Positions 158-49,454 of a DNA stretch of 64,000 nucleotides are shown here, piece after piece; the first letter of the stretch is position 1; each line of letters opens with the position of its first letter. A model generated the notes under the pieces. The model did not search any database. It saw nothing but the letters and a program-made list of their open reading frames with translations, and was not told the origin of the DNA. The stretch covers positions 2,790,001-2,854,000 of the forward strand of contig NZ_CP128360.1 in NCBI RefSeq assembly GCF_030345095.1. Reading direction: 5' to 3'. The DNA is from Solwaraspora sp. WMMA2056 (GTDB lineage Bacteria > Actinomycetota > Actinomycetes > Mycobacteriales > Micromonosporaceae). The position numbers and the translations under genes are program-made.

Positions 158-174
158 TCGCGATACGGTCCCGA
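158..174. promoter_or_regulatory. IclR-like operator dyad, site 1 (ABC importer operon)
   Basis: TCGCGA-TACGG-TCCCGA matches 8 of 12 positions of the island dyad GCGAGA-N5-TCTCGC. Over 18 bases it aligns at 14 with the perfect copy at 49438. A possible promoter, TTGGAT (198-203), 17 bases, TAATCC (221-226), lies downstream, before the ATG at 260. Binding by an IclR protein is inferred. Confidence 0.45.
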
Positions 175-259
175 ATTGGGTACCGCAGATCATGGTTTTG
201 GATCCAATCCTGATGAAATTTAATCCATCTTCGTCCCATACCCTGCCGAGGAGCGCACT

Positions 260-1906
260 ATGTCGGACGATTTCCGCAATCTTCCACAGAACCTGATATC
301 CCGTCGCGCGATGCTGCGCGGCGCCGGCCTGCTCGGCCTCGGCTTCGGCGCCAGCAGCCTGCTCGCGGCCTGTGGCGTCGCGTCTGACGGCAACGACGAC
401 GGCGACGACAGCGGCACCACCGGCGGCACCCTGACCCTCGGGATCGACGCCACCAGCGCCGTCAACGACCCCGCTTTCTACACCTCGCTCGGTGACTGGA
501 TGGCCGTCGACTGCATCTGCCGGGGCCTGACCTTCATCTCGTTCGAGACCACCGAGCCGCAGGCCGACCTGGCCGAGAGCTGGGAAATCTCCGACGACGG
601 ACTGACCTACACGTTCACCCTGCGCCAGGGGGTGACCTTCCACGACGGCAACACCTTCACCTCCGCCGACGTGCTGGCCAGTCTCGGCCGGCAGTTCAAC
701 GCCGACGACCCGACCCTGCCCGACGGTGCCTCCCGGCCGTTGAACAGCCTCGGCGCCAACGTCGCCTCGCTCGACGCCCCCGACGAGTACACCGTGGTGA
801 TGGTGCTCAACACCCCCGACGCGACGGTGCTCAACCGGCTGTCCGACATCGGTGGGCGGATCATCTCCAAGGCCGCCCTCGACGAGTACGGCGCCGACAT
901 CGGCAAGAACCTCGTCGGCACCGGGCCGTTCAAGTTCTCCTCGGCGACCGCCGGCCAGCAGGTGGTGCTGACCGCGTTCGACGACTACCGCACCGGCCGT
1001 CCCAAGGTCGACCGGTTGGTGCTGCAGCAGGTGCAGGACCCGTCGACGATCGTGAGCTCGCTGCTCAGCGGCGACCTGTCCGCCACCCAGTTCACCCCGT
1101 ACTCGGCGATCGAACAGCTGAAGGCCGACGACGCGGTGACCTTCCACGAGACGCCGTACAGCTTCGACGCCATGATGATGATCGACGCCCGGCGGATCCC
1201 GGAGCTGGAGGTGCGCCAGGCCATCAACCTGGCGATCGACCGGGAAGCGATCATCGCCCAGGCGTTCTTCGGCATCGCGGCCCTGCCCGAGGGATACACC
1301 ATCCCGCCGTCGCAGAACGGCTACGACCCGAGCCTGGCCGACCTGAGCCGGTTCGACCCCGACGAGGCCCGCCGGCTGATCGAGGCCGCCGGTGCCACCG
1401 GTCGTGAGGTCGCCCTGATGGCCGCCAGCGACTCGTGGCACCCGCGTGCCGCCCAGATCGTCGCGCAGAACCTCACCGACATCGGGCTGACCGTGGTCAC
1501 CGACTCGGTCGACCCGGCCACCTACTTCAGCCGGCTGCTCGACCCGGACGACCCGTTCCACGAGCTGATGATCTGGGAACGCAACTCCTACATCCCGGAC
1601 CCGGACAACATGATCGGCGCGATGGGGATGCCGTCCGGTGTGTACGGCGACTTCACCTCCGGGTTCAAGACCCTGCCCGGGTCGGAGGCGTTCGCCGCCG
1701 ACCTGGCCGCGGCGAAGAACCTGCCCAACGGCGACGAGCGCACCGCCGCGTACACCGACATCCAGCGTCGCTTCGCCGAGCAGTACATGGTGCTGTCGAT
1801 GCTCTGCTACTCGGCCAACCCGGTGGTCACCGGCGCCAACGTCGAAGGTGCCAACGTCGCCGCGCTCGGCAGCCACCGCTGCTTCATGGAGAACGCCAGT
1901 GTCTGA
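260..1906 (+). CDS. ABC transporter substrate-binding lipoprotein (SBP_bac_5, Dpp/Opp type)
   Basis: This is the extracellular solute receptor of a peptide/opine/nickel-type ABC importer. The 548 residues match the family length. The N terminus has a twin-arginine motif (SRRAML, Arg15-Arg16), a hydrophobic stretch and a lipobox LLAAC with Cys38, so it is probably exported by Tat and lipid-anchored. The body has typical family 5 segments such as FTLRQGVTFHDG near residue 120. ATG at 260 is preceded by GAGGAG. It is the first gene of a 13-gene co-directional run and is followed by its two permeases. The ligand cannot be read from sequence; the downstream amidases suggest an amide-containing small molecule rather than bulk peptides. 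Confidence 0.93.
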   Translation: MSDDFRNLPQNLISRRAMLRGAGLLGLGFGASSLLAACGVASDGNDDGDDSGTTGGTLTLGIDATSAVNDPAFYTSLGDWMAVDCICRGLTFISFETTEPQADLAESWEISDDGLTYTFTLRQGVTFHDGNTFTSADVLASLGRQFNADDPTLPDGASRPLNSLGANVASLDAPDEYTVVMVLNTPDATVLNRLSDIGGRIISKAALDEYGADIGKNLVGTGPFKFSSATAGQQVVLTAFDDYRTGRPKVDRLVLQQVQDPSTIVSSLLSGDLSATQFTPYSAIEQLKADDAVTFHETPYSFDAMMMIDARRIPELEVRQAINLAIDREAIIAQAFFGIAALPEGYTIPPSQNGYDPSLADLSRFDPDEARRLIEAAGATGREVALMAASDSWHPRAAQIVAQNLTDIGLTVVTDSVDPATYFSRLLDPDDPFHELMIWERNSYIPDPDNMIGAMGMPSGVYGDFTSGFKTLPGSEAFAADLAAAKNLPNGDERTAAYTDIQRRFAEQYMVLSMLCYSANPVVTGANVEGANVAALGSHRCFMENASV

Positions 1907-1936
1907 GTCCACCCCCTCGGCCCGTCCGGGGGAGCA

Positions 1937-2806
1937 GTGACGGTCGCAGGGGCGCGGCCGGTCGGGCGATGGAGAGCCGGCTACGCCCGGCGCTCCATCG
2001 CCCGGTCCTGGCTGGCCGCCGTCTCGTGGCTGGTGCTGATCGGGTTCATCCTGATCGCTCTGGTCGGCCCGCTGCTCGTCGGCGCCGACCCGGAACGCCA
2101 GACCAACGTGACGCTGGCCGGGGTCGGCGCGGCCGGGCATCCGCTCGGCACCGACGACCTCGGCCGCGACTTCCTCGCCCGGCTGGTGTACGGCGCCCGA
2201 CCGCTGTTGCAGGTCGCCTTCCTCGCCACCGGCCTCGCCGCGGCCATCGGCACCACCGTCGGGATGCTCGCCGGCTACCTCGGCGGCTGGGGGGAGCAGA
2301 TCCTGATGCGGTTGACCGACATCGGGCTGGCCTTCCCGTCGATGCTTCTGATCATCCTGGTCGTCGCGGCCAGCGGTCCCGGCGTCACCAGCCTGGTGAT
2401 CGGCGTCGGGATCGCCCTGTCACCCGGGTTGGCCCGGCTGGCCCGGGCGCTGACCGCCCGCGAGGCCGCGCGGGACTACGTCCTCGCCGCCCGCCTCGGC
2501 GGCACCCGGTCGCCCCGGATCATCGTGCAGGAGATCCTGCCAAACATCGCCGGCCCGATGCTCGCCCAGGTGGTGATGACCCTCTCCGTCGCCGCCGGGT
2601 TCGCCGCCGGCCTGTCCTACCTGGGGCTGGGCATCCAGCCGCCGACCCCGGACTGGGGCTACATGGTGCAGGCCGGGCAGGAGTTCATCTACTCGGCACC
2701 CCGACTGGTGGTGCTGCCCGCCGCGCTGACGCTGACCTTCGTGGTCGCCGGCAACTTCGTCGGCGACGACCTGCGCGACGCGCTGGACCCGAGGAGCCGC
2801 CGATGA
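1937..2806 (+). CDS. ABC transporter permease, DppC type
   Basis: Inner-membrane subunit of the importer (289 aa). It has an N-terminal membrane segment, a DLGRDFLARLVYGAR segment typical of DppC/OppC proteins, several further hydrophobic helices and the cytoplasmic EAA loop (EAARDYVLAARLGG, around residue 180) that contacts the ATPases. The GTG start at 1937 follows GGGGAG, 30 bases after the binding-protein gene. Its TGA overlaps the ATG of the next permease (ATGA). The gene order C before B reverses the usual dppB-dppC order. Confidence 0.92.
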   Translation: MTVAGARPVGRWRAGYARRSIARSWLAAVSWLVLIGFILIALVGPLLVGADPERQTNVTLAGVGAAGHPLGTDDLGRDFLARLVYGARPLLQVAFLATGLAAAIGTTVGMLAGYLGGWGEQILMRLTDIGLAFPSMLLIILVVAASGPGVTSLVIGVGIALSPGLARLARALTAREAARDYVLAARLGGTRSPRIIVQEILPNIAGPMLAQVVMTLSVAAGFAAGLSYLGLGIQPPTPDWGYMVQAGQEFIYSAPRLVVLPAALTLTFVVAGNFVGDDLRDALDPRSRR

Positions 2807-3855
2807 TCCGGCTGCTGCGCGGCAGGTCGCTGCCGATGCTGACGGTACGCCGGCTCGCCAGCGTCCCGCTGGTGCTGTTCGTCCTCGCCTCGCTGGTGTT
2901 CCTGGCCATCCGCCGGCTGCCCGGCTCGCCGTCGTCGACGCTGGCCGTCAGCGGCACCCAGGGGCTCACCGCCGAACAGATCTCCGCCAACGAGGCCCGG
3001 ATCAACGAGGCGCTCGGCCTGGACCGGCCGGTCTGGGAGCAGTACCTCACCTACCTCGGTGACCTGGCCCGGCTCGACCTCGGTCGGTCGTTCTACGGCG
3101 GCAACGACGTACTGGGCCTGCTCGGTGGGGCGCTGCCGGCGACCATCGAGCTGACCGTCGCCGCGATGCTGATCGCCGTGGTGCTCGGCGTGGTCACCGG
3201 GGTGATCGCCGCGTTGCGCAAGGACACCTGGGTGGACACCACCACCCGGTCCATCGCCACGGTCAGCTTCTCGCTGCCCTGGTTCGCCCTCGGCGTACTC
3301 AGCATCGTGATCTTCGGGGTGTGGCTGCGCTGGCTGCCGGTCATCGGCCGGCTGCCCAGCCAGCTCGACTACCGGCCCACCACCAACTTCGTGCTGCTCG
3401 ACGCGATCCTGCAGGACCGGCCGGAGCTCGTCTGGCCCTGGCTGCAGTACCTGATCCTGCCGGCCACGACCCTGGCGTTGGCGATGGCCGGGTTCATCAC
3501 CCGGATCGTGCGGGCCTCGGTGCTGGAGGTGCTCAGCGACGACTTCGTGCGGACCGCCCGGATGAAGGGCCTGCGGGAGCGGACCATCCTGCGCCGGCAC
3601 GTGCTGCGCAACGCCGGGCTGCCCATCGTGACCGTGCTCGGCCTTCAGTTCGGCTCGCTGCTCGGCGGCTCGGTGATCACTGAGACCGTCTTCTCCTATC
3701 CCGGCGTCGGCAATCTGCTGGTCAGCTCGGTGCTGCAACGCGACTACCCGGTCGTCCAGGGAGCCGCGTTGGCGATCGCGTTGCTCTTCGTACTGGTCAA
3801 CGCCGCCGTCGACCTGTTCTACCTGGTCCTCGATCCCCGCCTGCGGAAAGGATGA
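2803..3855 (+). CDS. ABC transporter permease, DppB type
   Basis: Second membrane subunit of the importer (350 aa). An N-terminal transmembrane helix (RLASVPLVLFVLASLVFLAI) is followed by the periplasmic stretch with LGLDRPVWEQYLTYLG that is characteristic of DppB/OppB. A core of about five helices and the EAA loop (FVRTARMKGLRERTIL) follow. ATG at 2803 overlaps the preceding stop. The same frame is open far upstream as an antisense-type shadow, but similarity to the family begins only here. Confidence 0.92.
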   Translation: MIRLLRGRSLPMLTVRRLASVPLVLFVLASLVFLAIRRLPGSPSSTLAVSGTQGLTAEQISANEARINEALGLDRPVWEQYLTYLGDLARLDLGRSFYGGNDVLGLLGGALPATIELTVAAMLIAVVLGVVTGVIAALRKDTWVDTTTRSIATVSFSLPWFALGVLSIVIFGVWLRWLPVIGRLPSQLDYRPTTNFVLLDAILQDRPELVWPWLQYLILPATTLALAMAGFITRIVRASVLEVLSDDFVRTARMKGLRERTILRRHVLRNAGLPIVTVLGLQFGSLLGGSVITETVFSYPGVGNLLVSSVLQRDYPVVQGAALAIALLFVLVNAAVDLFYLVLDPRLRKG

Positions 3856-3862
3856 GTCCATC

Positions 3863-4555
3863 ATGGATATTGTGCTGGTGCACGGTGCCGGCGGCACCCC
3901 GAGCACCTGGTCCGGCGTCGCACCGCTGCTGCGCGCCGCCGGCCACCGGGTGCAGCTGGTCACCAATCCGATGAACTCGCTGCGGGAGGACGTGGCCAAC
4001 ACCGCCGCCCTTCTCGACGCCACCGCCGGGCCGGTGCTGCTGGTCGGCCACTCCTACGGCGGCGCGGTGATCACCAACGTCGGCCGGGACGAGCGGGTGG
4101 CCGGGCTCGTCTACGTCTGCGCGTTCGCCCCCGACGAAGGCGAATCCATCCAGGACATCATCGGCCGGTATCCGCCGGCCGAGGTCAGCCGGCACATGCG
4201 GCGTGGACCCGACGGCGAATGGTTCTCCGACCACAGCCCCGAGTACTGGGCCGAGATCGGCTGGGATGTGCCCGAGGACGAACGGGCCAGCTTCGACGCC
4301 GACTCGCGGCCCAGCTCCAACGCGATCTTCGCCGAGCCCACCGGGGTGCCCGCCTGGCGCACCACGCCGGCCTGGTACCTGGTCGCCGCGCAGGACAAGA
4401 CGCTGCGTCCGGACACCCAACGGGACATGGCGGCCCGCGCCGGCGCCACCGTCGCCGAGATCACCGGCAGCCACTTCACCCCCCGGGTCTGGCCCCGCGA
4501 GGTGGCCGACCTGGTGGAGCGGGCCGCCGCCAGCCTCGCCGGAGCGCCCCGGTGA
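3863..4555 (+). CDS. alpha/beta hydrolase (esterase/amidase-like)
   Basis: Soluble alpha/beta-hydrolase of 230 residues. It starts directly at the first strand (MDIVLVHGAGG, oxyanion-hole HGAGG) and has the nucleophile elbow GHSYGG around residue 60. A late GSHFTPRVWP supplies the catalytic His. It resembles the EstC/salicylate-esterase-like group with short lids. It lies between the permease and ATPase genes of the importer, 7 bases after the permease stop, and overlaps the next gene by GTGA. It therefore probably acts on the imported compound as a first ester or amide cleavage step. Exact substrate unknown. Confidence 0.88.
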   Translation: MDIVLVHGAGGTPSTWSGVAPLLRAAGHRVQLVTNPMNSLREDVANTAALLDATAGPVLLVGHSYGGAVITNVGRDERVAGLVYVCAFAPDEGESIQDIIGRYPPAEVSRHMRRGPDGEWFSDHSPEYWAEIGWDVPEDERASFDADSRPSSNAIFAEPTGVPAWRTTPAWYLVAAQDKTLRPDTQRDMAARAGATVAEITGSHFTPRVWPREVADLVERAAASLAGAPR

Positions 4556-5595
4556 CCTCCGCCCCGGCGGCCCCGGCACCGCCCGTACTGTCCGTACGCG
4601 GGCTGCGGGTCGAGTTCGACGTGCCCGCCGGACGGCTGCCTGCCGTCGCCGGCGTCGACCTCGACCTGTACGCCGGGGAGATCCTCGCCCTGGTCGGCGA
4701 GTCCGGTTCCGGCAAGTCCGCCCTGGCGATGAGCCTGGTCGGGCTCAACCGCGCACCGGGCACCCACATCAGCGGCGAGGTCGACTTCAACGGGTGCAAC
4801 CTCGCCACCGCCAGCGAGGCCACCCTGCGCCAGGTCCGGGGCAGGGACGTCTCGGTGGTGTTCCAGGACGCCCTCGCCGCGCTCAACCCGCTGCAACGCG
4901 CCGGTGCCCAGGTCGCCGAGATGATCCGCACCCACCAGCGGGTCAGCCGGGCGCAGGCCTGGCGGCGGGCCGAGGAACTGCTCGCCGACGTCGGTATCGC
5001 CAACCCGGCCCGTAACGCCCGCGCCTACCCGCACCAGCTTTCCGGCGGGATGCGGCAACGCGTCATGATCGCCATCGGGCTGGCCAACGACCCGACCGTG
5101 CTCATCGCCGACGAGCCGACCACCGCCCTGGACGTGACCATCCAGGCCCAGGTGCTGGCCACCCTCAAACGGCTGCAGGCCGAGCACGGCACCTCGATCG
5201 TGCTGATCACCCACGACCTGGGGGTGGTCGCCGAGGTGGCCGACCGGGTGGCCGTCATGTACGGCGGCCGCATCGTCGAACAGGGCACCCGCGACCAGGT
5301 GCTGTACCAGCCGCAACACCCGTACACGATGGGCCTGCTGGACTCGGTGCCCCGGGTCGACGGTCCGGTCGCCGACGCGTTGCCAGCCATCCCCGGCAGC
5401 CCGCTCACCGGCGTCACCCGCCCGCCGGGCTGCGGCTTCGCCCCGCGCTGCGCGCTGCACCACGACGGCTGCGACACCGCGCCACCCGAGCTGATCCGCC
5501 GGTACGGCGACGCCGGCCACCTCGACGCCTGCCTGCTCGACGCGGCAGCCCGCCACGCCGCCCGTAGCCCCGCACGAGTCGGAGGTCAGCCGTGA
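4552..5595 (+). CDS. ABC transporter ATP-binding protein, DppD type
   Basis: ATPase of the importer, 347 residues from the GTG at 4552, which overlaps the hydrolase stop. It shows Walker A GESGSGKS near residue 45, signature LSGGMRQR, Walker [13 protein letters not shown] and the H-loop ITHDLG. The C-terminal extension with GCGFAPRC is the oligopeptide-type domain with conserved cysteines. It works with the DppF-type ATPase that follows (overlap GTGA at 5592). Confidence 0.93.
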
Positions 5596-6599
5596 CCGGT
5601 GTGCCGCTGATCCAGCTGACCGGCCTGCGGGTGGAGTACCCCGGGCGCGGCGGGGACCCGGTCCGCGCCGTGCGCGACGTCGACCTGGAGATCCGGTCGG
5701 GGGAGACCCTCGGCCTGGTCGGCGAGTCCGGCTGCGGCAAGTCCACCCTCGGCCGGGCCATCCTGCGGATCACCGAACCCACCGCCGGCAGCATCCGACT
5801 GCTCGGCAAGGAGATCACCGGCCTGCGCGGCACGGTGTTCCGGCAGACCCGCGCCGACCTGCAGATGGTGTTCCAGGATCCGTTCAGCTCGTTGAACCCC
5901 CGGCGGCGGATCGCCGACAGCGTCGCCGAGCCGCTGCTGCGCGGCCGGGGCATGAGCCGGGCCCAGGCCCGCCGTACCGTTGACGACCTGCTCGACCTCG
6001 TCGGGCTGGGCCGCGACGCCGGCCGGCGCCGGCCGCACGAGTTCTCCGGCGGGCAGCGGCAACGGATCGGCATCGCCCGCGCGCTCGCCCCGTCCCCCCG
6101 GTTCATCGTCGCCGACGAGCCGGTCTCCGCCCTCGACGTCTCCATCCAGGCCCAGGTGGTCAACCTGCTCGCCGACCTGACCCGCGAGCGCGGCCTGACC
6201 ATGCTGTTCATCTCGCACGACCTGGGCGTGGTGCGGCACATCGCCGATCGGATCGCCGTCATGTACCTCGGCCAGATCATCGAGGTCGCCGACCGCGACG
6301 CGTTCTTCGCCGGCCCGGCGCACCCGTACAGCGAGGCACTGCTGTCGGCCGTACCGACGCTGGACCGCACCGGCGGGCGGGAGCGGATCGTGCTCGCCGG
6401 CGAGCTGCCCGATCCTGCGCATCCGCCGGCCGGCTGCCTGTTCCACACCAGATGCCGGTACGCCGTCGACCGCTGCCGCAGCGAACCCCCCGCGTTGCGG
6501 CCCATCGCCGCGGACCGCACGGTCCGCTGCCATCTGCCCCTGGTGCCGGCCGACATCCCGGCACCATCGACCGTCACCACCGGAGGCGCACCACGATGA
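5592..6599 (+). CDS. ABC transporter ATP-binding protein, DppF type
   Basis: Second ATPase subunit (335 aa) of the importer. Walker A is GESGCGKS, signature FSGGQRQR, Walker [13 protein letters not shown] and H-loop ISHDLG. The C terminus has the oligopeptide-type tail ([17 protein letters not shown]). The GTG start at 5592 overlaps the previous stop, and the gene's TGA overlaps the ATG of the next gene, so translation is probably coupled throughout. Confidence 0.93.
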
Positions 6600-7360
6600 T
6601 CATCGACGCGTACAACACCACCCAGGACGTACGGGGCCGGTCCGACTACCTCACCGGTGCCCGTCCCGGCCAGGCCCCGCCGCCGTACACACCGTTCGAC
6701 CCGCGCCGCATCCTGGACCGGATGGACGCCGCCGGGGTGGACATGGCGATGGTCTGCTCGCTGGCCCAGCGGATCGAGAACGACTTCATCATCGGCCTGA
6801 CGAAGGCGTACCCCGACCGGCTGTTCGGGTTCGGGCAGGTCCGCCCGGCCGACGACGACGCGCTCGACGAGATCGCCCGGATCGCCGACGCCGGCCTCAA
6901 GGGCCTCAAACTGCATCCGAGCATGCACGGCTACCACGTCGCCGACCACGGTCTGCTCGACCCGGTCTTCGCCGCCTGCGCCGAACACGGTCTGATGGTG
7001 CTGATCAACGCGCTCGACGACGCGTTCTGCGCACCCCTGGCGATCGAGGAGATCGCCAAGGGCCACCCGCAGGTGCCGACGATCATCGCCCACATGGGCG
7101 CGGTGTGGAACGTCCCGGAGGCGATCATCGTCGCCGAACGCAACCCGCACATCTACCTGGAGACCTCGGCGACGCTGATCAGCGACGTCCGGCGCGCGTA
7201 CGCCCGGCTCGGCCCGGAGCAGATCCTGCTCGGCAGCGAGTGGCCCGGCTCCGACTTCGACCTGGAACGGATGAAGATCGCCAAGGCGATCCCGGACGCG
7301 GCCGACCGGGCCCTGGTCGAGGGCGGCAACATGGCGAAACTCCTCGGGATCTCCGCGTGA
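6596..7360 (+). CDS. amidohydrolase-2 family protein with an altered metal site
   Basis: TIM-barrel protein of the amidohydrolase_2 (COG2159) type, 254 residues. It shows the later His motifs [10 protein letters not shown] and IIAHMG and a final GSEWPGSDF near residue 220. The first-strand HxH metal motif of the family is absent: the protein begins [11 protein letters not shown] where IDxHxH is expected, and the last Asp position reads Glu. It may be metal-free, use another ion, or act as a decarboxylase or hydrolase variant. ATG at 6596 overlaps the ATPase stop. It sits inside the catabolic operon, so a role in converting the imported compound is inferred. Confidence 0.8.
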
Positions 7361-7812
7361 CCGCCGCCGACGTCGCCCCGGTGCCGCCGCCGGCCGACAT
7401 GGCCCCGGGCGACGTCGAACTGCTCGACGTCGCCCAGCGGCTGCTGTCGAAGGTCTGGGTCGCCGGCCGACACGAGGTCGCCACCGCGCTGCGTACCCCC
7501 GACGGTGCCATCCACACCGGCGTCCACCTGGAAGGGTCATGCCGGCGCAGCTCCATCTGCGCCGAGGGGGTCGCCCTCGGGGCGGCCCGTGGCGCGCTGG
7601 CACCGGACGCACCGCTCACCGTCGACAGCGTCGTCTCCGTCCAGATCAAACCCGCCGGACGGTTCCGGATCATCGCCCCGTGCGGCGTGTGCCGGGAGCT
7701 GATCAGTGACTACAGCCCGCAGACCCGCGTCTGGATCACCACCGTCGACGGTGCCGTCACCGCCATGGCGGCCATCGACCTGCTCCCGGAGAAGTCCCGC
7801 CGCGCCTGGTGA
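7357..7812 (+). CDS. cytidine deaminase-like zinc hydrolase
   Basis: Small deaminase-fold protein, 151 residues from the GTG at 7357, which overlaps the previous stop. The zinc and catalytic motifs are visible: CAE in [13 protein letters not shown] (about residue 70, with catalytic Glu) and PCGVCREL (about residue 108). This is the three-Cys arrangement of cytidine or blasticidin-S deaminases. It probably deaminates an amino-heterocycle. The operon context of amidohydrolases and importers suggests a pathway intermediate rather than nucleoside salvage, but that is inference. Confidence 0.85.
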
Positions 7813-7891
7813 GGCGACCCGACCGCGAAACCCGCGCCGACCACGACCGTGCGGCCCGCGCCGACCACGTCCACGTACCGAGAGGAACACC

Positions 7892-8704: not shown

Positions 8705-8790
8705 CCGTCACGCCCCGGTTCTGACCGTCCTGCACGGCCCCGACCGCCCGCGCCCTGACCGTCCCGCCACGCTCTGCCCGGAGGACCCGC

Positions 8791-9423: not shown

Positions 9424-9441
9424 CCGGCGAGACTGATCCGC

Positions 9442-42243: not shown

Positions 42244-42252
42244 GGGCCGACC

Positions 42253-43053
42253 GTGATGCGTACGGGGGTACACACCGGCCGGGCCGCGCTGCGTGAGCGG
42301 CTGCGGCGCGGCCGGCGGGTGGTCGGCACGTTTGTCAAACTGCCCGGCACCGACGCGGTCGAGCTGGCCGCCCAGGCCGGCCTCGACTTCGTCGTGGTCG
42401 ACCTGGAGCACTCCGGGTTGGACGAGCGGACCGCCGCCGGGCAGCTGCGGCACGCCGCCCTGCTCGGTCTGCCGGCCCTGGTCCGGCTGGCGGCGGTCGA
42501 CCCGGCGCAGGTCAACCGGCTGCTGGAGGCCGGCGCGGCCGGGGTGCAGCTGTCCACCGTACGGGCCCGCGCGCAGGTCGCCGCGCTGCAGGCCGCCGTC
42601 CGGTACGCCCCCGTCGGCCGGCGCAGCATCAGCCTGGCCCACCCGGCGGCCGGCTACGGGGCCGCCGGCCTGGACGCCTACCTGGCCGCCGAGGCCGCCG
42701 ACCCGCCGCTGCTGGTGGCCCAGATCGAGACCGCCGACACCGACGACCCGCTGCCCGACCTGCTCACCGACGCCCGTGGCGCGCCGAGCGTCGACGTCGC
42801 CTTCGCCGGCACCACCGACCTGGCGGTCAGTCTCGGCCTGGCCACCACCGACGACCAGGCGCCGCTGCTCCGCCGGGTCGGTGAGATCACCGACGCCGCC
42901 CGCGCCGCCGGTGTCACCCTGGGCGGGTGGGCGCCGGGCCGTGCCGACGACATCCTGCGGCGGTACGGCCTGACCAGCGCCACCTACCTGGTCGCCGGCT
43001 CCGACCTGCAACTGCTCGGCGCCGGACTGCGCCACCTCGCCACCGACAGCTGA
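42253..43053 (+). CDS. HpcH/HpaI-type aldolase
   Basis: 266-residue class II pyruvate aldolase fold. VGTFVKLPGTDAVELAAQAG and FVVVDLEHSG at the start, VNRLLEAGAAGVQLSTV, AQIETAD-type metal-ligand strand (VAQIETADTDD) and VAFAGTTDLAVSLG. Members split 4-hydroxy-2-oxo acids into pyruvate plus an aldehyde, the last step of meta-cleavage routes. Start is GTG 42253 or the ATG immediately after it. Confidence 0.92.
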   Translation: MMRTGVHTGRAALRERLRRGRRVVGTFVKLPGTDAVELAAQAGLDFVVVDLEHSGLDERTAAGQLRHAALLGLPALVRLAAVDPAQVNRLLEAGAAGVQLSTVRARAQVAALQAAVRYAPVGRRSISLAHPAAGYGAAGLDAYLAAEAADPPLLVAQIETADTDDPLPDLLTDARGAPSVDVAFAGTTDLAVSLGLATTDDQAPLLRRVGEITDAARAAGVTLGGWAPGRADDILRRYGLTSATYLVAGSDLQLLGAGLRHLATDS

Positions 43054-43075
43054 ACCCCTCGAAGGGAGTCCGGAC

Positions 43076-43453
43076 GTGCTGAACCCGCAGCTCTACCGCA
43101 CCTCGGTCAACTGGGACGACATCCCCGCCACCGACGTGCGCCCCGGCGTGCGACGCAAGGTGTACGCCACCGACGAGGTGGTGCTCGCCTGGCACGAACT
43201 CGCCGTCGGGATGGACCTCAACCCGCACACCCACGACGACTTCGACCAGCTGGTGATGATCCTCGGCGGCCGGTGCAACTACTACGTCGACGGCGTGCCG
43301 CACGACATGGGTCCGGGCTCGATGCTGCTGGTGCCGCGCGGTGCCGAGCACTACGTCGAGCCGACCGAGGGGCCCTGCATCAACCTGGACGTGTTCGCCC
43401 CGCCGCGTGCCGACTTCCTGGCGCACGCCTGGCGTCCCGCCACGCAGGACTGA
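43076..43453 (+). CDS. cupin-domain protein
   Basis: 125-residue single cupin. Motif 1 GMDLNPHTHDDFDQLVMILGG supplies two His and an acidic ligand; motif 2 is GSMLLVPRGAEHYVEP. GTG at 43076 follows AAGGGAG. It could be a dioxygenase, isomerase or sugar-related epimerase. It sits between the aldolase and ribokinase. Confidence 0.88.
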   Translation: MLNPQLYRTSVNWDDIPATDVRPGVRRKVYATDEVVLAWHELAVGMDLNPHTHDDFDQLVMILGGRCNYYVDGVPHDMGPGSMLLVPRGAEHYVEPTEGPCINLDVFAPPRADFLAHAWRPATQD

Positions 43454-43459
43454 GCTGAG

Positions 43460-44374
43460 ATGCCCGACATCGTGGTGGTCGGCAGCCTCAACGTCGACGT
43501 GGTGGTGCCCCTGGATCGGCTGCCCGACCCCGGGCAGACGGTGCTCAGCGCCGCCGACCATTCCCGGGCCGGTGGCGGCAAGGGTGCCAACCAGGCGGTG
43601 GCGGCCGCCCGGCTCGGTCGTTCGGTGGCGATGGTCGGCGCGGTAGGCGACGACCCGGAAGGGCAGTGGCTGACCGGGCTGCTGGCCGCCGAAGGCGTCG
43701 ACACCTCGGCGGTGCTGCGCGCCCCCCGCCCCACCGGGCAGGCGATCGTGCTGGTCACCGCCGACGGCGACAGCACCATCGCGGTCAGCTCCGGGGCCAA
43801 CATGTGGCTCGCCGCCGAGCACCTGCGGCCGTACGCCGACCTGATCGGTGACGCCGCCGCCGTACTGCTGCAGCAGGAGGTCGACGCGGCGGTGGTGGCC
43901 GCGGCGGTGGCCGCCGCCCGCGGCCTGGTCGTGGTGAACCCGGCGCCGGCCCGACCGGTCGACGCGGCGACCCTGGCCCGGGTCGACGTGCTGGTGCCCA
44001 ACCGGGGCGAACTGGCGGCGCTGGCCGGTGCCGGCTCGTCGGTGTCCGGTGGCGGGGCCGGCGATGCCGCCGCGCTGGCCGCGATGGCCCGATCGCTGCG
44101 CACCCGGGGGCCGGTGGTGGTGACGCTCGGCGTCGACGGCGCCCTGGTGGTGACCGCCGACCGGGAGCTTCTGGTGCCGGCCGAGCAGGTCGACGCGGTG
44201 GACGCCACCGGTGCCGGGGACACCTTCTGCGCGGCGTTGGCCGACGCGCTGCTCGACGGGGCGGCGATCGTCGACGCGGCCCGGTGGGCCAGCCGGGCGG
44301 CGGCGGTGACGGTGACCCGGCCCGGCGCGATGGCCGCCGCCCCGCGCCGGGCCGAGGTGCTCGCCGTCGGCTAG
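43460..44374 (+). CDS. rbsK: ribokinase (PfkB family)
   Basis: 304-residue PfkB carbohydrate kinase. GGKGANQAVAAARLG near residue 38 and the anion-hole motif DATGAGDTFCAALADAL (about residue 250) fit ribokinase best. It would phosphorylate ribose or a related sugar released from a nucleoside-like substrate, which fits the BMP-type importer in the window. Last gene of the operon; its stop overlaps a convergent gene by 4 bases. Confidence 0.88.
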   Translation: MPDIVVVGSLNVDVVVPLDRLPDPGQTVLSAADHSRAGGGKGANQAVAAARLGRSVAMVGAVGDDPEGQWLTGLLAAEGVDTSAVLRAPRPTGQAIVLVTADGDSTIAVSSGANMWLAAEHLRPYADLIGDAAAVLLQQEVDAAVVAAAVAAARGLVVVNPAPARPVDAATLARVDVLVPNRGELAALAGAGSSVSGGGAGDAAALAAMARSLRTRGPVVVTLGVDGALVVTADRELLVPAEQVDAVDATGAGDTFCAALADALLDGAAIVDAARWASRAAAVTVTRPGAMAAAPRRAEVLAVG

Positions 44375-45573
44375 GCGGTCTGCCGGCGCCGCATGATCCG
44401 GTGCACGGTCAACCCGGTCGCCATCAGCAGAGCCACCACGAACAGGTCGAAGCCGAACAGGCCGAAGCCGGTGCACGCGCTGAGCACGCCCAGGCCGAAC
44501 GTGACGAGGGTCAGCGTCCAGCCGACCCGGGTGGGCGTGGACCTGGCGGCGACCCGGCGCGGCGCGCTGCCGCGCGGTCGGCGGGACACCGCCAGGATGA
44601 CCCCCGCTGCGAGGGTGGCGAGGATCGTCGGGGCGAGCAGCAGCAGGCCTTCGTCACCGGGCACGGTCCACGACCAGATCGGTCCCTCATGCAACGAGAA
44701 GCCCTGGTCGACGATCGTCAGGTAGTCCCGAACGACGAAGTTGATCAGGAAGAACGAGTTGCCGGCCGCGATGATGGCCAGCAGGGCGAGGACGCCGCTG
44801 GCCGCCGTGCTGTGCTCGGTCCGGCGGCTCGCCCAACCGGCGAGGAGCCAGCCGAGGGCCATGCCGGCAAGGCCGCCGGCGGCGAAACCGACCGGCATCC
44901 CGGCCGGCTCGACCCGGCGTACCGAGACCTCGAACCAGCCCCCGTCGGCCGGTTCCAGCGTCTGGTAGGTGTTGGCGAAGGTCAGCAACCAGCCGTCCTT
45001 GGTAGCGGTCAGGATCTCGGCGGTACGCAGATCGGCGTGGCCCGAGTAGGAGAGCGGGCCGAGCCGCCAACCGTCCGCGGTCAGCCGGTCGGCGACCTCG
45101 GCGTCGTACGCGCGCAGGTCGGATATCGGGGCAGCGTGTTCGGCCTGGTACCGGACCTGGCCGAACTGTGCCTCGCCGTTGCCGTTGACGAAGACCTGCT
45201 CGTGCCGCTCCAGTGGCGGTACCTCGACGTCCGGGGTGACCAGCCCGGCGATGGTGGTCATTTCGGCCGTGCTGGGCAGCGGCCGGTCGGTTTCGCCGTA
45301 GGCGCGGGCGGTCAGCGACGCGGCGACGAAGCCGCTGAGGATCGAGACGATGACGGCGACCAGCACCACGAGGCGGTTGCCCGGCCGCCCCAGCCGGGCG
45401 CGCGGGGCGTGCCGGAGCACGTTGCCGACCTCGCGGGCGCTCGGGCGTCGGCGGCCGGTGTCCTCGGCGACCATCAGCATGGTGTCGAGCAGTTCGGCGC
45501 GACGGGGCCCGGGCGGGTAGGCATGGGCGAGCAGGCGGTAACGCCGGAAGCGGGCGGGCGCGGTCCGGCTCAT
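44371..45573 (-). CDS. membrane protein of unknown function downstream of PadR
   Basis: 400 residues. A short soluble start (PPGPRRAELLDTMLMVAEDTGR, a permease-prefix-like segment) is followed by a transmembrane helix at about 68-88, a hydrophilic extracytoplasmic region of about 120 residues, then about six further helices. No transporter signature recognised. It overlaps the PadR gene by 4 bases, as in many PadR-plus-membrane-protein pairs where the regulator controls the membrane protein. Confidence 0.8.
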   Translation of the reverse strand: MSRTAPARFRRYRLLAHAYPPGPRRAELLDTMLMVAEDTGRRRPSAREVGNVLRHAPRARLGRPGNRLVVLVAVIVSILSGFVAASLTARAYGETDRPLPSTAEMTTIAGLVTPDVEVPPLERHEQVFVNGNGEAQFGQVRYQAEHAAPISDLRAYDAEVADRLTADGWRLGPLSYSGHADLRTAEILTATKDGWLLTFANTYQTLEPADGGWFEVSVRRVEPAGMPVGFAAGGLAGMALGWLLAGWASRRTEHSTAASGVLALLAIIAAGNSFFLINFVVRDYLTIVDQGFSLHEGPIWSWTVPGDEGLLLLAPTILATLAAGVILAVSRRPRGSAPRRVAARSTPTRVGWTLTLVTFGLGVLSACTGFGLFGFDLFVVALLMATGLTVHRIMRRRQTA

Positions 45574-45911
45574 CCGAACGCCACCGTGGCCGGCCCGGCC
45601 GGTGGGCGCAGCGCGTCCAGCAGCCGGGACGCGGTGGCCACCTTGCGGCTCAGCCGTTGCGTCTCGGCGGCCAGCGCGGCGCCACCGGAGTCGGTGAGCC
45701 GGTAGTAGCGGCGCAGCCGCCCGTCGACCGCCTCCTCCCGGTCGACGGCCACCAGACCCTCGGCGGCCAGCCGGTCCAGCGCGGCGTAGAGGGTCGCCGC
45801 CAGCAGCCGCGTCTCACCCCCGGACAGCCTGGTGACCTGCTGGATCACCCCGTATCCGTGTCGTGGCTGGTCGACCAGCGCGGTCAGGATCCAGAACGTC
45901 GGTTCTCTCAT
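45570..45911 (-). CDS. PadR-family transcriptional regulator
   Basis: 113-residue PadR winged-helix protein starting MREPTFWILTALVDQPRHGY, with ATLYAALDRLAAEGLVAVDREE and RRYYRLTDSG. ATG at 45911 is preferred over the ATG at 45944 because family similarity begins at MREP. A TATATT box lies about 15-20 bases upstream of that ATG, so the message may be short-leadered or leaderless. Downstream gene is the membrane protein, upstream an MFS exporter. Confidence 0.88.
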   Translation of the reverse strand: MREPTFWILTALVDQPRHGYGVIQQVTRLSGGETRLLAATLYAALDRLAAEGLVAVDREEAVDGRLRRYYRLTDSGGAALAAETQRLSRKVATASRLLDALRPPAGPATVAFG

Positions 45912-45948
45912 TGGACGTGTCACGCGGTTGAATATACAAACCATTTGA

Positions 45949-47127
45949 CTATCTGGCCAGTGGGTCGACCGGAACGAGCGCGTGCCGACGGCCCACCACC
46001 CACAGGGCCAGGGCGAAGCAACTCAGCCCCACCCCGGCCAGCGACACCGCCGTCCAGCCGCCGGCCACCCAGAGCATCGCGGCGGCGGCCGAGCCAGCGG
46101 CGCCGCCGAGGAAGTTCGCGGTCACGTACGCCGTGTTCAGCCGGCTGCGTGCCTCGTGTGAGACGGCCATCACTCGCAACTGGTTGAGGATCCCGGCCGC
46201 CTGCAACGCGGCGTCGAGCACGACCACCACGACGATCACCAGCAGGACGCTGCGGCCGGCGAACAACGCCACCACGAACGAGGCGAGCACCAGGACCCAC
46301 GCCGCGCCGGTGGCGGGCAACGACCAGCCCAGGTCGTGCAGCCGGCCGCTGCGCTGCGCGGCGACCGCGCCAGCCAGCCCGGCGAGGCCGAACAGCCCGA
46401 TCACCGACACCGGATAGTCGAACGGCGGGCCACTGAGCAGGAACGTCAACGCCGTCCAGAACATGGTGAACGCGGCGAAGCCGGTAGCGGACAGCACCAA
46501 CGTCCACCGGACCGCGCGTTCGCGGGCGACCACCACGGCGACGGACGCGATCAGCGCCGGGTACGCCAGCCGGGTCTTCGGTGCCAGCGACGGGATCGCC
46601 CGGTACATCACCACGGCGAAGCCGACCGCGACCACCGCCGCCAACAGGAAGATCGCCCGCCAGCCGGCGACGTCGGCGACCAGGCCGCTGATGGTCCGCG
46701 AGGCGAGGATGCCGGTCAGGATCCCGGCGACGACCGTACCGACCGCCCTGCCTCGGCGGGCATCGTCGGCGAGATCGCTGGCGAGCGGGGTCAGCAACTG
46801 CCCGGAGACCGTGGCCACCCCGAGCACGGTGATCGCCACGAGCAGCACGCCGAACGACGGCGCGAGCGCGCACGCCACCAGCGTGCCCGCCGCGCAGAGC
46901 ATCAGCACCGGTACCAGCCGGCGTCGGTCGAGAATGTCGCCCAGCGGCACCAGGAACAGGATCCCGACGGCGTAGCCGACCTGGGTGGCGGTGACCAGCA
47001 GACCGGCCGTCGCGGTGGTGACGTCGAGGTCGGCGGCGATGAGGTCGAGCAGCGGTTGCGCCCAGTAGAGGTTGGCGACAGCGGCACCGGCGGCCACCGC
47101 GAACAGGAAGGTCAGCCCCCGGCGCAT
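45949..47127 (-). CDS. MFS transporter
   Basis: 392 residues with 12 predicted helices. The motif-A-like loop LVPLGDILDRRRLVPV lies between helices 2 and 3. It resembles the YgaY/arabinose-efflux-type drug exporters. It lies 38 bases upstream of the PadR gene on the same strand, so the three genes may form one unit for efflux of a toxic compound. Substrate not predictable. Confidence 0.9.
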   Translation of the reverse strand: MRRGLTFLFAVAAGAAVANLYWAQPLLDLIAADLDVTTATAGLLVTATQVGYAVGILFLVPLGDILDRRRLVPVLMLCAAGTLVACALAPSFGVLLVAITVLGVATVSGQLLTPLASDLADDARRGRAVGTVVAGILTGILASRTISGLVADVAGWRAIFLLAAVVAVGFAVVMYRAIPSLAPKTRLAYPALIASVAVVVARERAVRWTLVLSATGFAAFTMFWTALTFLLSGPPFDYPVSVIGLFGLAGLAGAVAAQRSGRLHDLGWSLPATGAAWVLVLASFVVALFAGRSVLLVIVVVVVLDAALQAAGILNQLRVMAVSHEARSRLNTAYVTANFLGGAAGSAAAAMLWVAGGWTAVSLAGVGLSCFALALWVVGRRHALVPVDPLAR

Positions 47128-47184
47128 GGCGTACCCCGGTCGGCGTCGGAACAGATCACGCCCGACCGTACGCCACGGACGGGA

Positions 47185-47915
47185 TCAGGCCAGCGTGACC
47201 GGGTTGGTCAGGGCCGCCAGCCGCCCATCGAGGTGGCGCACCTCGACCCGGACGAACACCGACGCCGTGGCATCTGTGCGCCATCGGATGCTGCCGGCGC
47301 CGTCGGCGGACAATGCGGCGCGGTACGCCGTACCCCGGTCGGTGTGGATCTCGACCACGCCCGACGGCACGCCACGGACCTCGACCTCGACGGTGGCCGT
47401 GGCTCCGCCGGTGTCGAGCCGGCGATCCAGCTGTGACCGGCGGCGATGCCGGCCAGCAGTGCCTCCACCGTGCGTTCACCAGCGCGCACCACGGTGTGCG
47501 GGATGCCGATCTGGCCGGCGAGATGGGTGTCGCTGTTACCGATCGCCGGCCGCCAGCCACCCCTGTGGAGGTCGGCCGCCAGGCTCGCGGTCCAGTCGGC
47601 CAACGCCGCCTCGTTGTCGGCGTTCCACGGCAGGTCCGATGCCCACTGTCCGTTCCAGACCTCGACGGCGTCGAAGCCCTGGTACGGGTACTCGAACGTG
47701 CCCGACGGGTAGGGCGCGTACGGGTGCGCCACCACGCACAGCCCGCCGGCGTGGTCGACCCAGTCGGCGTACCCGTCGGTGGTGTTGTGCTCGGTGACGG
47801 CGACGAAGTCGAGCCCGGCCGCGTGGGCGGCGGCGGTGAGCTGCGCCGGGGTCAGCTCGCCCCCGGTCGACCGCACGGAGTGCAGGTGGCAGTCGCCCCG
47901 GTACCAGCCGGCCAT
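47185..47915 (-). pseudogene. PHP-domain metal-dependent hydrolase, frameshifted near its end
   Basis: The N-terminal 170 residues form a PHP domain (GDCHLHSVRSTGG, VAVTEHNTTDGY, VVAHPYAPYP, GNSDTHLAG) with its metal ligands. After GHSWIAGS the frame becomes low-quality Arg/Ser/Pro sequence that ends at 47208. The neighbouring frame carries a sensible C-terminal beta domain (VEIHTDRGTAYRAALSADG... to VTLA) ending at 47185. A one-base indel at about 47405-47420 would join them. It could be a true mutation or a sequencing error. Confidence 0.72.
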
Positions 47916-48020
47916 TGTGCCAGCCTATGCGGTTCGGGCCTGGCGGACCGCCCCGTGAGTGGACGTTCGCCCCGTGCGTGGACGCTCGCACCGCGCGTCG
48001 CGGACAGGTGTGGTTCAGTC

Positions 48021-48062
48021 CAGTATTCCTGTGAGGAATAGTTATTCCTCACAGGAATACTG
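48021..48062. promoter_or_regulatory. tandem 17-bp palindromes (operator-like)
   Basis: TATTCCT-gtg-AGGAATA and TATTCCT-cac-AGGAATA are separated by GT, so each unit is a dyad and the pair is a 42-base perfect inverted repeat. It lies in the 209-base gap between the PHP gene (5' side) and the acetamidase gene (3' side). The AT-rich arms argue for protein binding; a terminator role for the acetamidase gene does not fit, since the element is past its stop by 60 bases without a U-tract. Confidence 0.65.
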
Positions 48063-48124
48063 CCTTGCAGCGATAGGTATCCGCCGGACCCGTCGGTCGA
48101 CCCGGTCCGGCGCGGGCGAGCACC

Positions 48125-49231
48125 TCAGATGTGGGCCGGGAAGTCGGCCTTGCGGATCAGGCAGTGCACGCCCTTGACCGCGTCGACGACCTGGCTGACC
48201 TCGAAGTCGGCGGCGGCGCTCAGGTAGGCCAGGGCGGTGTCGCGGGGCATGCCCTGGGTGCGGGCCAGGAAGTCGACCGCGGCGCGGACCGCTCGGCGCA
48301 TCGCCTCGTTGAGGTCGGCGTCCAGGCCGACGGGAATCCAGTGGGTGGCGGTCTCGGCCAGGGGCGCCTCACCGGCGCCGACCAGCAGGCCGGCCTGCGC
48401 CGCCGGGATGACGCTCAACCGCAGAGTGGCCCGCAGCGGTGCCTCCAGGGCGGTCAACGCAACCTCGCCGTCGCCCTGGGCGTAGTGCGGGTCGCCGGCG
48501 TAGAAGCCGGCTCCGGGCAGCTGCACCGGCAGGTAGAGGCTGGAGCCGACCTGCAGCTCGTTGATGTCCAGGTTGCCGCCGTGCCCGCCGGGCGGCACCG
48601 AGTGCACCATCTCGTCGGTGTCGACGGCGACGCCCATCAGGCCGAGGAACGGCGCGAGCGGGAACCGGGCGGCCCGGCCGTCGCCGAACGGCAGGACCCC
48701 GTACAGTCGGCCGCCGCTGCTCACGACCTCGGTGAAGTGGCAGACGCTGCCGTACTCCCGAGGGTCGCTGCCCGGCCCGGTGTCGATCGGGGTGAGCGGG
48801 AACTCGCCGGGCAGCGCGCCGTAGCCGTGCCGGCTGCTGACGAAGCCGTACGGGGCCCGGATCGTCAGGTCGAGCACGTCGACCCGGAGCAGGTCGCCGG
48901 GCTGCGCGCCGTCGACGGTGATCGGGCCGGTGACCACGTGCGGTCCGTCGTCGTCGTAGTCGTGGGCGACGTCGGAGGCGGCCAGGTCCCGGGCGTCGGC
49001 GAGGACACCGTCGGCGGGTACGTCGTACTGCTTGAGGTAGCCGACCGGGTCGCGGCCCTGGTCCTCGAGGATGCTCTCGTGGCTGAGGGTGTCGATGGTC
49101 ACGGTCTCCCCGGAGCGGACCCGCAGCACCTCGGCGTGGCTGCGGTTGGGGAGCCGACCCCACAGGCAGGTGTCAGGGGTGGTCGGCAGGTAGTGGGTGC
49201 CGGCGATCGGTCCCTGGTGCGGCTGGAGCAT
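48125..49231 (-). CDS. acetamidase/formamidase-family amidase
   Basis: 368-residue FmdA/AmdA-type amidase. Typical segments are THYLPTTPDTCLWGRLPNRS, the metal region VPPGGHGGNLDINEL (about residue 210) and GDPHYAQGDGEVALTALEAP. It releases ammonia from small amides such as formamide or acetamide. ATG at 49231 has GGAGGAACC upstream. It is divergent from the Rieske operon and could deal with the amide released by ring or side-chain cleavage. Confidence 0.92.
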   Translation of the reverse strand: MLQPHQGPIAGTHYLPTTPDTCLWGRLPNRSHAEVLRVRSGETVTIDTLSHESILEDQGRDPVGYLKQYDVPADGVLADARDLAASDVAHDYDDDGPHVVTGPITVDGAQPGDLLRVDVLDLTIRAPYGFVSSRHGYGALPGEFPLTPIDTGPGSDPREYGSVCHFTEVVSSGGRLYGVLPFGDGRAARFPLAPFLGLMGVAVDTDEMVHSVPPGGHGGNLDINELQVGSSLYLPVQLPGAGFYAGDPHYAQGDGEVALTALEAPLRATLRLSVIPAAQAGLLVGAGEAPLAETATHWIPVGLDADLNEAMRRAVRAAVDFLARTQGMPRDTALAYLSAAADFEVSQVVDAVKGVHCLIRKADFPAHI

Positions 49232-49401
49232 CGGTTCCTCCGGAAGGGGTACCCGGCCGGGCGGGCGCAGGACGCGCGGCGGTGGGCGCCGCTGGCGGGC
49301 CGGGTGACGGGTGGATGACCGGATCGTTTCCGGCGGACCCGCTCGGATGTGTTGCTGTCCTGTTAACAGTCGGTAACCCGGCTACGGAGGATGTCCTGCT
49401 C

Positions 49402-49407
49402 TTGACA
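49402..49407 (+). promoter_or_regulatory. -35 box of the Rieske operon
   Basis: TTGACA lies 31 bases upstream of the operator. The -10 is unclear (candidates at 49423-49431, around GATAGCAGCAT). The 299-base region 49232-49530 contains this box, the operator and the divergent acetamidase start; no gene is seen. Confidence 0.45.
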
Positions 49408-49437
49408 GGTGACCGGCTCTGATAGCAGCATCGGAGG

Positions 49438-49454
49438 GCGAGATACTGTCTCGC
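49438..49454. promoter_or_regulatory. IclR-like operator dyad, site 8 (Rieske operon; perfect copy)
   Basis: GCGAGA-TACTG-TCTCGC is a perfect 6-5-6 dyad and defines the island motif. It lies just downstream of the likely start of transcription of the Rieske operon, in a repressor position. Confidence 0.7.

Follow-up and report, generated by a model that had tools for sequence, protein, structure and literature searches.

We investigated a 64,000-nucleotide stretch of the Solwaraspora sp. WMMA2056 genome (hereafter referred to as the window; contig NZ_CP128360.1, positions 2,790,001 to 2,854,000), in which a catabolic island resembling the lum cluster for lumichrome (vitamin B2) contains repeated copies of an inverted repeat upstream of its genes. 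We consider with good confidence that seven of these dyads serve as operators of a single IclR-family regulon on the lum-like island. The operator is very likely the switch of the lumichrome-like pathway, as it is found together with this type of regulator gene in many actinobacteria, and the regulon probably handles flavin-derived heteroaromatics by repression. An original prediction made from this DNA had proposed one IclR-type regulon over 50 kb with eight copies of the dyad GCGAGA-N5-TCTCGC. The assignment to an IclR regulon stood, as the operator follows one clade of IclR proteins, whereas its extent was reduced to approximately 33 kb (16.4–49.5 kb).

The inverted repeat and its distribution

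The eight 17-mers and their match counts were exactly as originally given. All eight have C or T at position 7 and A or G at position 11, and the repeats are bordered by three A/T-rich bases on each side; the refined form of the operator is GCGAGAY-N3-RTCTCGC with A/T flanks on either side. Because 225 positions in the window reach at least 8 of the 12 matches to the bare motif, the match count alone says little for the sites, which are distinguished from the background by the pyrimidine at position 7, the purine at position 11, and the A/T-rich flanks. We built a symmetric 23-bp matrix from the window sites, left out each site in turn, and ranked 63,978 positions; the left-out sites ranked 6th to 9th. 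With the 23-bp matrix, the eight sites were the top eight positions of the window (lowest score, 18.6; next position, 12.5). The site at 158 was unstable, with a rank of 83 without flanks and 15 with 6-bp flanks; the other seven ranked 7 or better in both cases.

A 27-bp matrix (hereafter, the foreign matrix) was prepared from 186 unique sites found in genomes other than that of the window, some of which belong to the same genus or family. The sites at 16433, 20340, 21601, 24518, 37301, 38647, and 49438 scored 20–30 bits with this matrix (Table 1), whereas the site at 158 scored 5.9 bits and fell below an unrelated chance position at 6.7 bits. The counterpart of the latter site in genome G003 scored 12.8 with the window matrix. 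On the foreign-matrix scores we rejected site 158 as an operator, which leaves the Opp-type importer behind it unsupported. The shared dyad is thus retained at seven of the eight sites, and only one of the two importers originally placed under the regulon, the Bmp-type ABC operon, is left.

In the 7.01-Mb genome, the bare motif with up to 2 mismatches occurred 186 times versus 261 times for the reversed control, showing no enrichment, and the core CRAGAYNNNRTCTYG with up to 1 mismatch was also at background (54 versus 71). The perfect core, the letters of which were picked with the sites already in view, occurred at three places in the genome, all in the window (21601, 38647, and 49438), which comprises 0.9% of the genome. 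The genome was further searched with two models, one from window and foreign sites and one from foreign sites only (15 sites, both orientations). Both models gave the same four places at E ≤ 10, all within the window (8 and 7 rows listed), among the 150 of 874 and 150 of 824 candidates that were scored, so that weaker places may be missed. Random frequency across the genome, which had been named in the original prediction as a refutation, applies to the bare 12-letter motif but not to the refined operator.

Orthologs of IclR2, one of the two IclR proteins of the island, were found in 6 of the 6 members of the genus searched, in genomes G009, G037, G117, G008, and G068, and in four genomes of one genus in family f13. 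A site of at least 16 bits with the window matrix was present near each of these 15 orthologs, the neighborhoods of which were uneven (some of 3.8 kb only, others of 20–80 kb); in G117 and G068, the 3.8-kb loci (L032 and L034) contained no site and the 40-kb stretches contained several. The 65 relatives of IclR2 among the named genomes, counted after removal of L139 (39% over 49 residues), include those of Micromonospora, Microtetraspora, Streptosporangium, Nocardioides, Pimelobacter, Blastococcus, Streptomyces, Pseudonocardia, Actinomadura, Rhodococcus, Williamsia, Acidimicrobia, and two Chloroflexi bins. Around these relatives, 215 sites of at least 16 bits were present in 1.19 Mb, with at least one at 60 of the 65 loci. 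First-order random copies of the loci contained 2 such sites. None was found in 20 control segments (400 kb, six from the same genome as the window; 1 site of at least 14 bits) or at the loci of 14 non-orthologous IclR genes (51.6 kb; best score, 13.3).

As a test independent of the window matrix, gapped dyads were counted upstream of 43 non-Micromonospora Rieske genes without any matrix. The count returned the same dyad: GAGACG-N1-CGTCTC was present at 40 and GCGAGA-N5-TCTCGC at 37 of the 43 genes, any shuffled dyad was present at 12 or fewer, and the best eight dyads were registers or close variants of one dyad. A Rieske-alpha-like protein (E ≤ 1e-80) was encoded in 29 of 397 genomes of the order at 33 places, 30 of which were scanned (three paralog places without a locus were omitted). 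The operator was found at 13 of 13 orthologs (64–100% identity, window included) with 21.6–28.5 bits and at none of the 16 paralogs scanned (39–43% identity); it was not found at a second Rieske copy in G097 (62%), which lies on a contig other than that of its IclR gene. The IclR gene was present in all 13 genomes with an operator-bearing ortholog, although in G293 on a different draft contig from the Rieske gene, and in none of the four paralog genomes checked. Across species, the operator is conserved upstream of the regulator gene itself and of linked pathway genes, as in an IclR regulon.

The background frequencies of the bare motif and of the core with one mismatch would also arise if such dyads occurred by chance in a GC-rich genome, and site 158 fits this explanation. 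Chance does not account for the leave-one-out ranks, the foreign-matrix scores, the counts at the 65 loci, the contrast between Rieske orthologs and paralogs, the matrix-free dyad, the perfect core, or the conservation across families seen for seven sites, and we regard it as extremely improbable.

The regulator and the direction of control

IclR1 (HTH_IclR, 5.4e-10; IclR_C, 4e-18) and IclR2 (1.4e-12 and 2.6e-20, respectively) both possess the winged helix-turn-helix and the C-terminal effector domain of the IclR family. Their recognition helices are nearly identical, SRATAHRY in IclR1 and SKATAHRY in IclR2; SKPTAHRY occurs in some IclR1 rows, and the outgroup rows mostly differ, two being near with [KR]STAHRY. 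The conservation of the helix in L074–L138 comes partly from selection, as SKATAHRY and NLLRYDER served as the search patterns for these loci; the loci of the G genomes and the IclR1 rows were chosen without helix patterns. In a quick tree, IclR1 and IclR2 were both placed inside the operator-bearing clade (SH-aLRT 98), while 9 of the 14 outgroup rows were far outside and five were nearer on very long branches and placed unsurely. IclR1 grouped weakly (SH-aLRT 89) with single-copy regulators of other genera. Because Microtetraspora and Streptosporangium also carry IclR1, the duplication predates the genus. Both IclR proteins probably inherited the operator, and its binder may be IclR1, IclR2, or both; we made no choice between the two because of their shared clade and nearly identical helices.

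A separate observation concerns Microtetraspora (L081–L084 and L089), in which an IclR2-like gene (80–85%) is located away from the catabolic cluster. It has one site of at least 15 bits upstream of itself, no other cluster gene was seen nearby, and it is possibly a stand-alone copy of the regulator.

IclR1 and IclR2 might be paralogs that respond to different inducers and compete for the same operators, splitting the work. The placement of both within the operator-bearing clade, the weak grouping of IclR1 with single-copy regulators, and the similar helices are consistent with such a division, but no window site differs so as to predict which protein would act where. We consider the division possible, although not the more probable arrangement.

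A binder of another family was also considered, as the genes of a PucR/CdaR-type protein (23116–24375) and a TetR protein (15766–16425) are both inside the island, and the former follows the aldehyde dehydrogenase (ALDH) gene behind the operator at 21601. Neither gene was detected (tblastn, 1e-15) at any of the 65 loci carrying the 215 sites, however, and PucR was found among the fetched stretches of the G genomes only in G003, G009, and, at 39%, G117. Furthermore, the layout of the dyad matches the group 2 motifs of IclR proteins, such as RWWGAAACGNCGTTTCAKKA of KdgR (PMC8222616, main text). PucR and TetR were rejected by their co-occurrence of 0/65 each, and binding by either is very unlikely. 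The operator was not found near the remaining regulators of the window, next to 14 further IclR genes, or ahead of 16 Rieske paralogs; its occurrence follows this IclR clade through many actinobacteria, and the comparative evidence strongly favors an IclR-type regulon.

The distances between neighboring sites peaked at 20 bp (21 counts), 25 bp (17), and 45 bp (17), with 4 or fewer counts for each of the others; strong pairs enter these counts twice. A third half-site, GCGAGA at +12 to +17 in alternating direction, matched at least 5 of 6 letters in 13.7% of the flanks versus at most 3.8% elsewhere. In orthologs, the 20-bp peak and the alternating third half-site correspond to the tandem and three-box arrangements of IclR operators. 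In the window, the tandem partners at 20360 (3.5 bits) and 37321 (5.4 bits), each 20 bp off, are weak.

We took TTGAC as the start of the −35 box and measured its offset from the operator center in orthologous loci. TTGAC was located at +9 to +13 in 18 of the 19 sites of the TauD/TfdA-family dioxygenase (TauD) gene, at −43 to −50 in 40 of 66 Rieske sites, at −30 in 7 of 7 sites of the alcohol dehydrogenase ADH1, and at +5 in 6 of 6 ALDH sites. The 46 ferredoxin-reductase sites had it at +12 (11 sites) or −49 to −51 (17), and the 49 FAA-hydrolase sites at −11 (18), +12 or +14 (21), and −30 or −31 (8). No TTGAC was seen for 4 P450, 11 LumF-like, and 9 FmdA sites. Because the offsets differ between genes, the operator would precede the presumed promoter at some genes and overlap or follow it at others. 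The original description of almost all sites as lying at recognizable −35/−10 boxes agrees with these preferred distances in regards to the −35 box, but a strict sigma-70 scan of 16300–25000 and 37000–50000 gave one pair at a site (37340–37311, minus strand).

The data show the sites, their restriction to the island at high scores, their co-occurrence with the IclR clade, and the resemblance of the genes; from these we infer that a protein binds, how it controls the genes, and which inducer and substrate are involved. The inverted repeat GCGAGAY-N3-RTCTCGC would be bound by dimers of IclR2, of IclR1, or of both, and two dimers could sit side by side where there is a second copy 20 bp off or a third half-site at 12 bp from the center, an arrangement that has been reported for the IclR family. 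The regulator would keep the promoters off, its own included, until a flavin-derived intermediate binds to the C-terminal domain. Where the operator is just upstream of the −35 box (TauD and the ferredoxin operon), activation may replace repression. Repression with relief by the intermediate, and possible activation at TauD, is the mode that we favor.

Some IclR proteins, PcaU and PobR among them, are activators, and this clade might likewise bind as an activator that recruits RNA polymerase from operators abutting the −35 box, the downstream sites being secondary. The offsets at the TauD sites and at the 11 ferredoxin-reductase sites with +12 would suit such a mode. In contrast, TTGAC precedes the center by 43–50 bp in the 40 Rieske sites, by 49–51 bp in 17 ferredoxin-reductase sites, and by 30 bp in all ADH1 sites, so the operator would lie at or after the presumed transcription start. 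Activation as the general mode appears unlikely, and repression is preferred.

Gene content of the island and the candidate substrate

The lum cluster was described in Nocardioides/Pimelobacter simplex ATCC 6946, and bacterial lumichrome breakdown was reconstituted only in 2025 (Sinha et al. 2025, PMC12746152, main text; comment, PMC12752717, main text). We compared the window with 297.9–326.6 kb of the P. simplex ATCC 6946 genome (G458), reached through L098; this region was equated with the lum cluster by organism and content, and the Lum letters were assigned here from order, product, and size on the basis of that main text. The Rieske alpha and beta subunits, ferredoxin reductase, extradiol dioxygenase, P450, ALDH, FAA hydrolase, LumW-like protein, and aldolase are 55–75% identical between the two clusters, and the importer ATPase, one permease, and the LumF-like protein are 47–55% identical (Table 1). 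The window thus contains counterparts of the P450 LumU, Rieske LumC/D, extradiol LumE, LumV/W/X, and the importer. In regards to LumE, two adjoining frames (Dabb-like, then extradiol dioxygenase) are present in the window and one fused 402-aa protein in P. simplex.

Operators of one kind are located at the window operons and at the P. simplex lum operons. Those of P. simplex scored 18.8–23.1 bits with the window-only matrix: 299202 and 299327 in the divergent reductase/Rieske region, 303836 before the LumH-like gene, 314439 in the ALDH/importer region (with a weak partner 20 bp on), 321269 at the P450 gene (to which the foreign matrix gave only 14.4 bits), and 323718 before the FAA hydrolase gene.

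Unlike the lum cluster, the window carries TauD with its leader peptide, SnoaL, a second VOC protein, ADH2, FmdA, and the ribokinase-like PfkB. Three candidates for further Lum proteins were rejected: the best LumH-like protein of the same genome is only 34% identical, and the first amidohydrolase as LumM (28%) and ADH1 as LumT (32%) are too distant for orthologs. Among the 65 loci (up to 10 kb on each side of the IclR gene), LumH and LumI were present in 5 and LumJ in 7, and TauD, SnoaL, a VOC protein, and ADH2 were frequent partners in the others. In L094–L138 and L205–L207 (P. simplex), the same operator is found over two cluster forms, one with LumH/I/J in Nocardioides and Pimelobacter and one with TauD/SnoaL/VOC in many others. 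The clusters seem to share the lower pathway and to differ in the upper part.

Several observations weigh against one IclR regulon on a lum-like island. The lum steps for the pyrimidine and pyrazine rings (LumH, I, K/L, and J) were not found in the window, where LumI, LumJ, and LumK/L gave no match and LumH gave only short stretches (63–98 residues); because of this, the upper pathway and perhaps the substrate would differ from those of P. simplex. Five of the 65 loci contain no site of at least 16 bits. The site counts are not independent because many of the loci are close relatives (186 of the 35-mers are unique), and the results with the foreign matrix and the foreign-site model are not wholly independent, as the foreign sites were first chosen using the window matrix. 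Any gene always linked to the IclR gene would also co-occur with the sites because the loci were found through the IclR gene; this comparison excludes PucR and TetR and leaves room for an unlinked regulator. Upstream of 19 TauD genes, the dyad was present in 16–17, and GC-rich dyads reached 18 (shuffles, 1 to 7). Upstream of 34 FAA-hydrolase genes, it was present in 24, tied with TCTTGC-N3-GCAAGA (24) and slightly ahead of the everted TCTCGC-N3-GCGAGA (22). The third half-sites in the window are weak (best, 4/6), and, with respect to the direction of control, the operators are variously upstream of, overlapping, or downstream of TTGAC.

Table 1. Features of the island. Bits are those with the foreign matrix; percentages are identities to P. 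simplex ATCC 6946.
Feature	Position	Strand	Bits	Remarks
TetR-family regulator	15766–16425			
Operator GCGAGACGGCGTCTCTG	16433–16449	+	25.6	abuts TTGACG −35 (+9 from center); heads leader peptide and TauD
41-aa leader peptide ending in RPGTAAGDPQTPF	16513–16638	+		between operator 16433 and TauD
TauD/TfdA-family dioxygenase	16791–17861	+		Pfam TauD, 3.7e-25
Self-sufficient P450, LumU-like	18044–20248	−		heme, reductase, and ferredoxin domains in one chain; 734 residues, 4–733 align to 6kbh and 3–734 to 6laa; 61% (protein at 321267–323573)
Operator ACGAGACAACGTTTCAC	20340–20356	−	25.8	upstream of P450 gene; weak partner at 20360
Zinc alcohol dehydrogenase ADH1	20494–21582	−		
Operator GCGAGACTGCATCTTGA	21601–21617	.	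25.0	between divergent ADH1 and ALDH; overlaps presumed ALDH −35; perfect core
Aldehyde dehydrogenase, LumN-like	21650–23119	+		61%
PucR/CdaR-type regulator	23116–24375	+		rival binder, not favored; 0/65 loci
ADH2	24516–25586	+		longest frame; real GTG start probably 24558
Operator GCAAGACGGCATATCGT	24518–24534	+	30.0	upstream of ADH2-amidohydrolase-Bmp ABC operon
Amidohydrolase, deaminase-like	25583–27052	+		
Bmp-type ABC importer	27049–32086	+		binding protein, ATPase (49%), two permeases (one 55%)
VOC-family protein and SnoaL-like protein	34122–35401	+		adjoin the cluster in many loci
IclR1	35491–36294	+		recognition helix SRATAHRY
IclR2, longest frame	36291–37295	−		recognition helix SKATAHRY
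Operator GTGAGACAGCATCATGG	37301–37317	−	20.1	upstream of IclR2; weak partner at 37321
LumF-like protein	37329–38615	−		no Pfam or NCBIfam family; 47%
Operator CCAAGATGACGTCTCGC	38647–38663	.	29.7	between LumF-like gene and ferredoxin-reductase operon; TTGACA at +12; perfect core
Presumed operon: ferredoxin reductase, FAA hydrolase, amidohydrolase, HpcH aldolase, cupin, ribokinase-like PfkB	38824–44374	+		reductase 63%; FAA hydrolase (LumV-like) 55%; amidohydrolase (LumW-like) 67%; aldolase (LumX-like) 58%; cupin LumY-like by Pfam and place
FmdA/AmdA-family amidase	48125–49231	−		divergent from Rieske operon
Operator GCGAGATACTGTCTCGC	49438–49454	.	25.6	TTGACA 44 bp before center in Rieske direction; perfect core
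Rieske dioxygenase alpha and beta, LumC/LumD-like	49528–51481	+		67 and 57%
Dabb-like frame and extradiol dioxygenase	51493–52713	+		together match fused LumE-like protein

Leader peptides containing RPGTA[AV]G and ending in Q[TV]PF were found in 19 of 19 cases, namely the window and 18 other TauD loci with the operator 200–450 bp upstream. The peptide belongs to no NCBIfam family, and a riboswitch in the TauD leader was rejected, as the leader matched no Rfam family. The conserved peptide points to a second layer of control on TauD, exerted at translation.

As the substrate of the island, we infer lumichrome or riboflavin. In a complete use of riboflavin, the Bmp-type importer would take up riboflavin, TauD would oxidize the first ribityl carbon to give ribose and lumichrome, the PfkB kinase would use the ribose, and the P450-to-aldolase pathway would burn the lumichrome. 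One IclR switch sensing a flavin fragment would govern these genes, and the leader peptide would add the second control on TauD. The PDB matches of the importer binding protein include Treponema TpN38(b) (4iil, 1.6e-7), which we take to be a riboflavin-binding protein and which hints at this use, but the best match is the Treponema lipoprotein TmpC (2e-10), presumably a purine nucleoside-binding protein. A further hint is that TauD orthologs (64–91%) are present in 8 of the 14 genomes tested; they are absent from four Nocardioides/Pimelobacter genomes and Dactylosporangium roseum, the loci of which carry LumJ and, in the four, also LumH and LumI. Against it, TauD is missing from Streptomyces uncialis even though no LumH, I, or J was seen in the 20-kb locus of this species, and other enzymes would be needed for the middle steps because LumH–L are not in the window. 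Complete riboflavin use is thus a doubtful proposal. If it is correct, both halves of vitamin B2 catabolism, so far found only in separate strains (PMC12746152, main text), would be united in a single organism.

Other elements were observed in and beside the island. A PadR regulator adjoining an MFS transporter (45570–47127, minus strand) is inside it, with no such operator among the top-scoring positions. The region at 260–14596, which adjoins the regulon and has no supported operator, contains the Opp-type ABC importer and creatininase, cyclase, gamma-glutamyltranspeptidase, OYE, and amidohydrolase genes and is perhaps a separate amide-degrading cluster. A palindromic intergenic repeat at 20417–20497 and 35398–35478 is dispersed in the genome, with 70 matched stretches that represent approximately 40 copies, as many of the stretches are overlapping opposite-strand pairs of one copy; it had no match in the plasmid collection.

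Comparison with known IclR systems

The words IclR, regulator, repressor, and promoter are absent from the main text of PMC12746152, which names no regulator. In the literature other than subscription papers and supplements, we found neither a regulator reported for lumichrome use or for this cluster nor a description of the operator. The IclR regulon itself is an ordinary kind of system, here on a pathway described only in 2025. The operator provides a sequence tag for the control of this pathway and predicts its member genes across many actinobacteria; among these are the genes for TauD, SnoaL, VOC, and the leader peptide, which the P. simplex cluster was not seen to contain. It also makes directly testable whether the inducer sensed is lumichrome, which is a rhizosphere signal, or a later product.

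IclR proteins typically have tandem sites 18–22 bp apart (Suvorova and Gelfand 2021, PMC8222616, main text). The operators of the island share two short half-sites with a small gap with the group 2 and three-box operators described there, and, in orthologs of the window sites, the tandems of approximately 20 bp and the alternating third half-site with the latter. They differ from group 2 in the half-site (GCGAGAY versus TGRAAC) and in the 25- and 45-bp spacings. In a comparison by eye with the group 2 consensus TGRAACAN1-2TGTTYCA, the layout agreed and approximately 4 of 7 letters per half matched. The string GAGAC is absent from the main text of PMC8222616, supplements apart.

NdgR/LtbR of actinobacteria (PMC4340878, main text) is likewise an IclR-family protein with an actinobacterial regulon, but its motif is KTYCRSMWYSYGRRM (PMC8222616, main text), and neither GAGAC nor GTCTC is present in the main text of PMC4340878. 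The best PDB sequence match of IclR2 is the KdgR structure 5y6i, and the KdgR operator RWWGAAACGNCGTTTCAKKA (PMC8222616, main text) reads GAAAC-GNC-GTTTC where the operator of the island reads GAGAY-GNC-RTCTC. The two differ in one half-site letter and in the genes controlled, which in the case of KdgR are those for pectin/galacturonate use.

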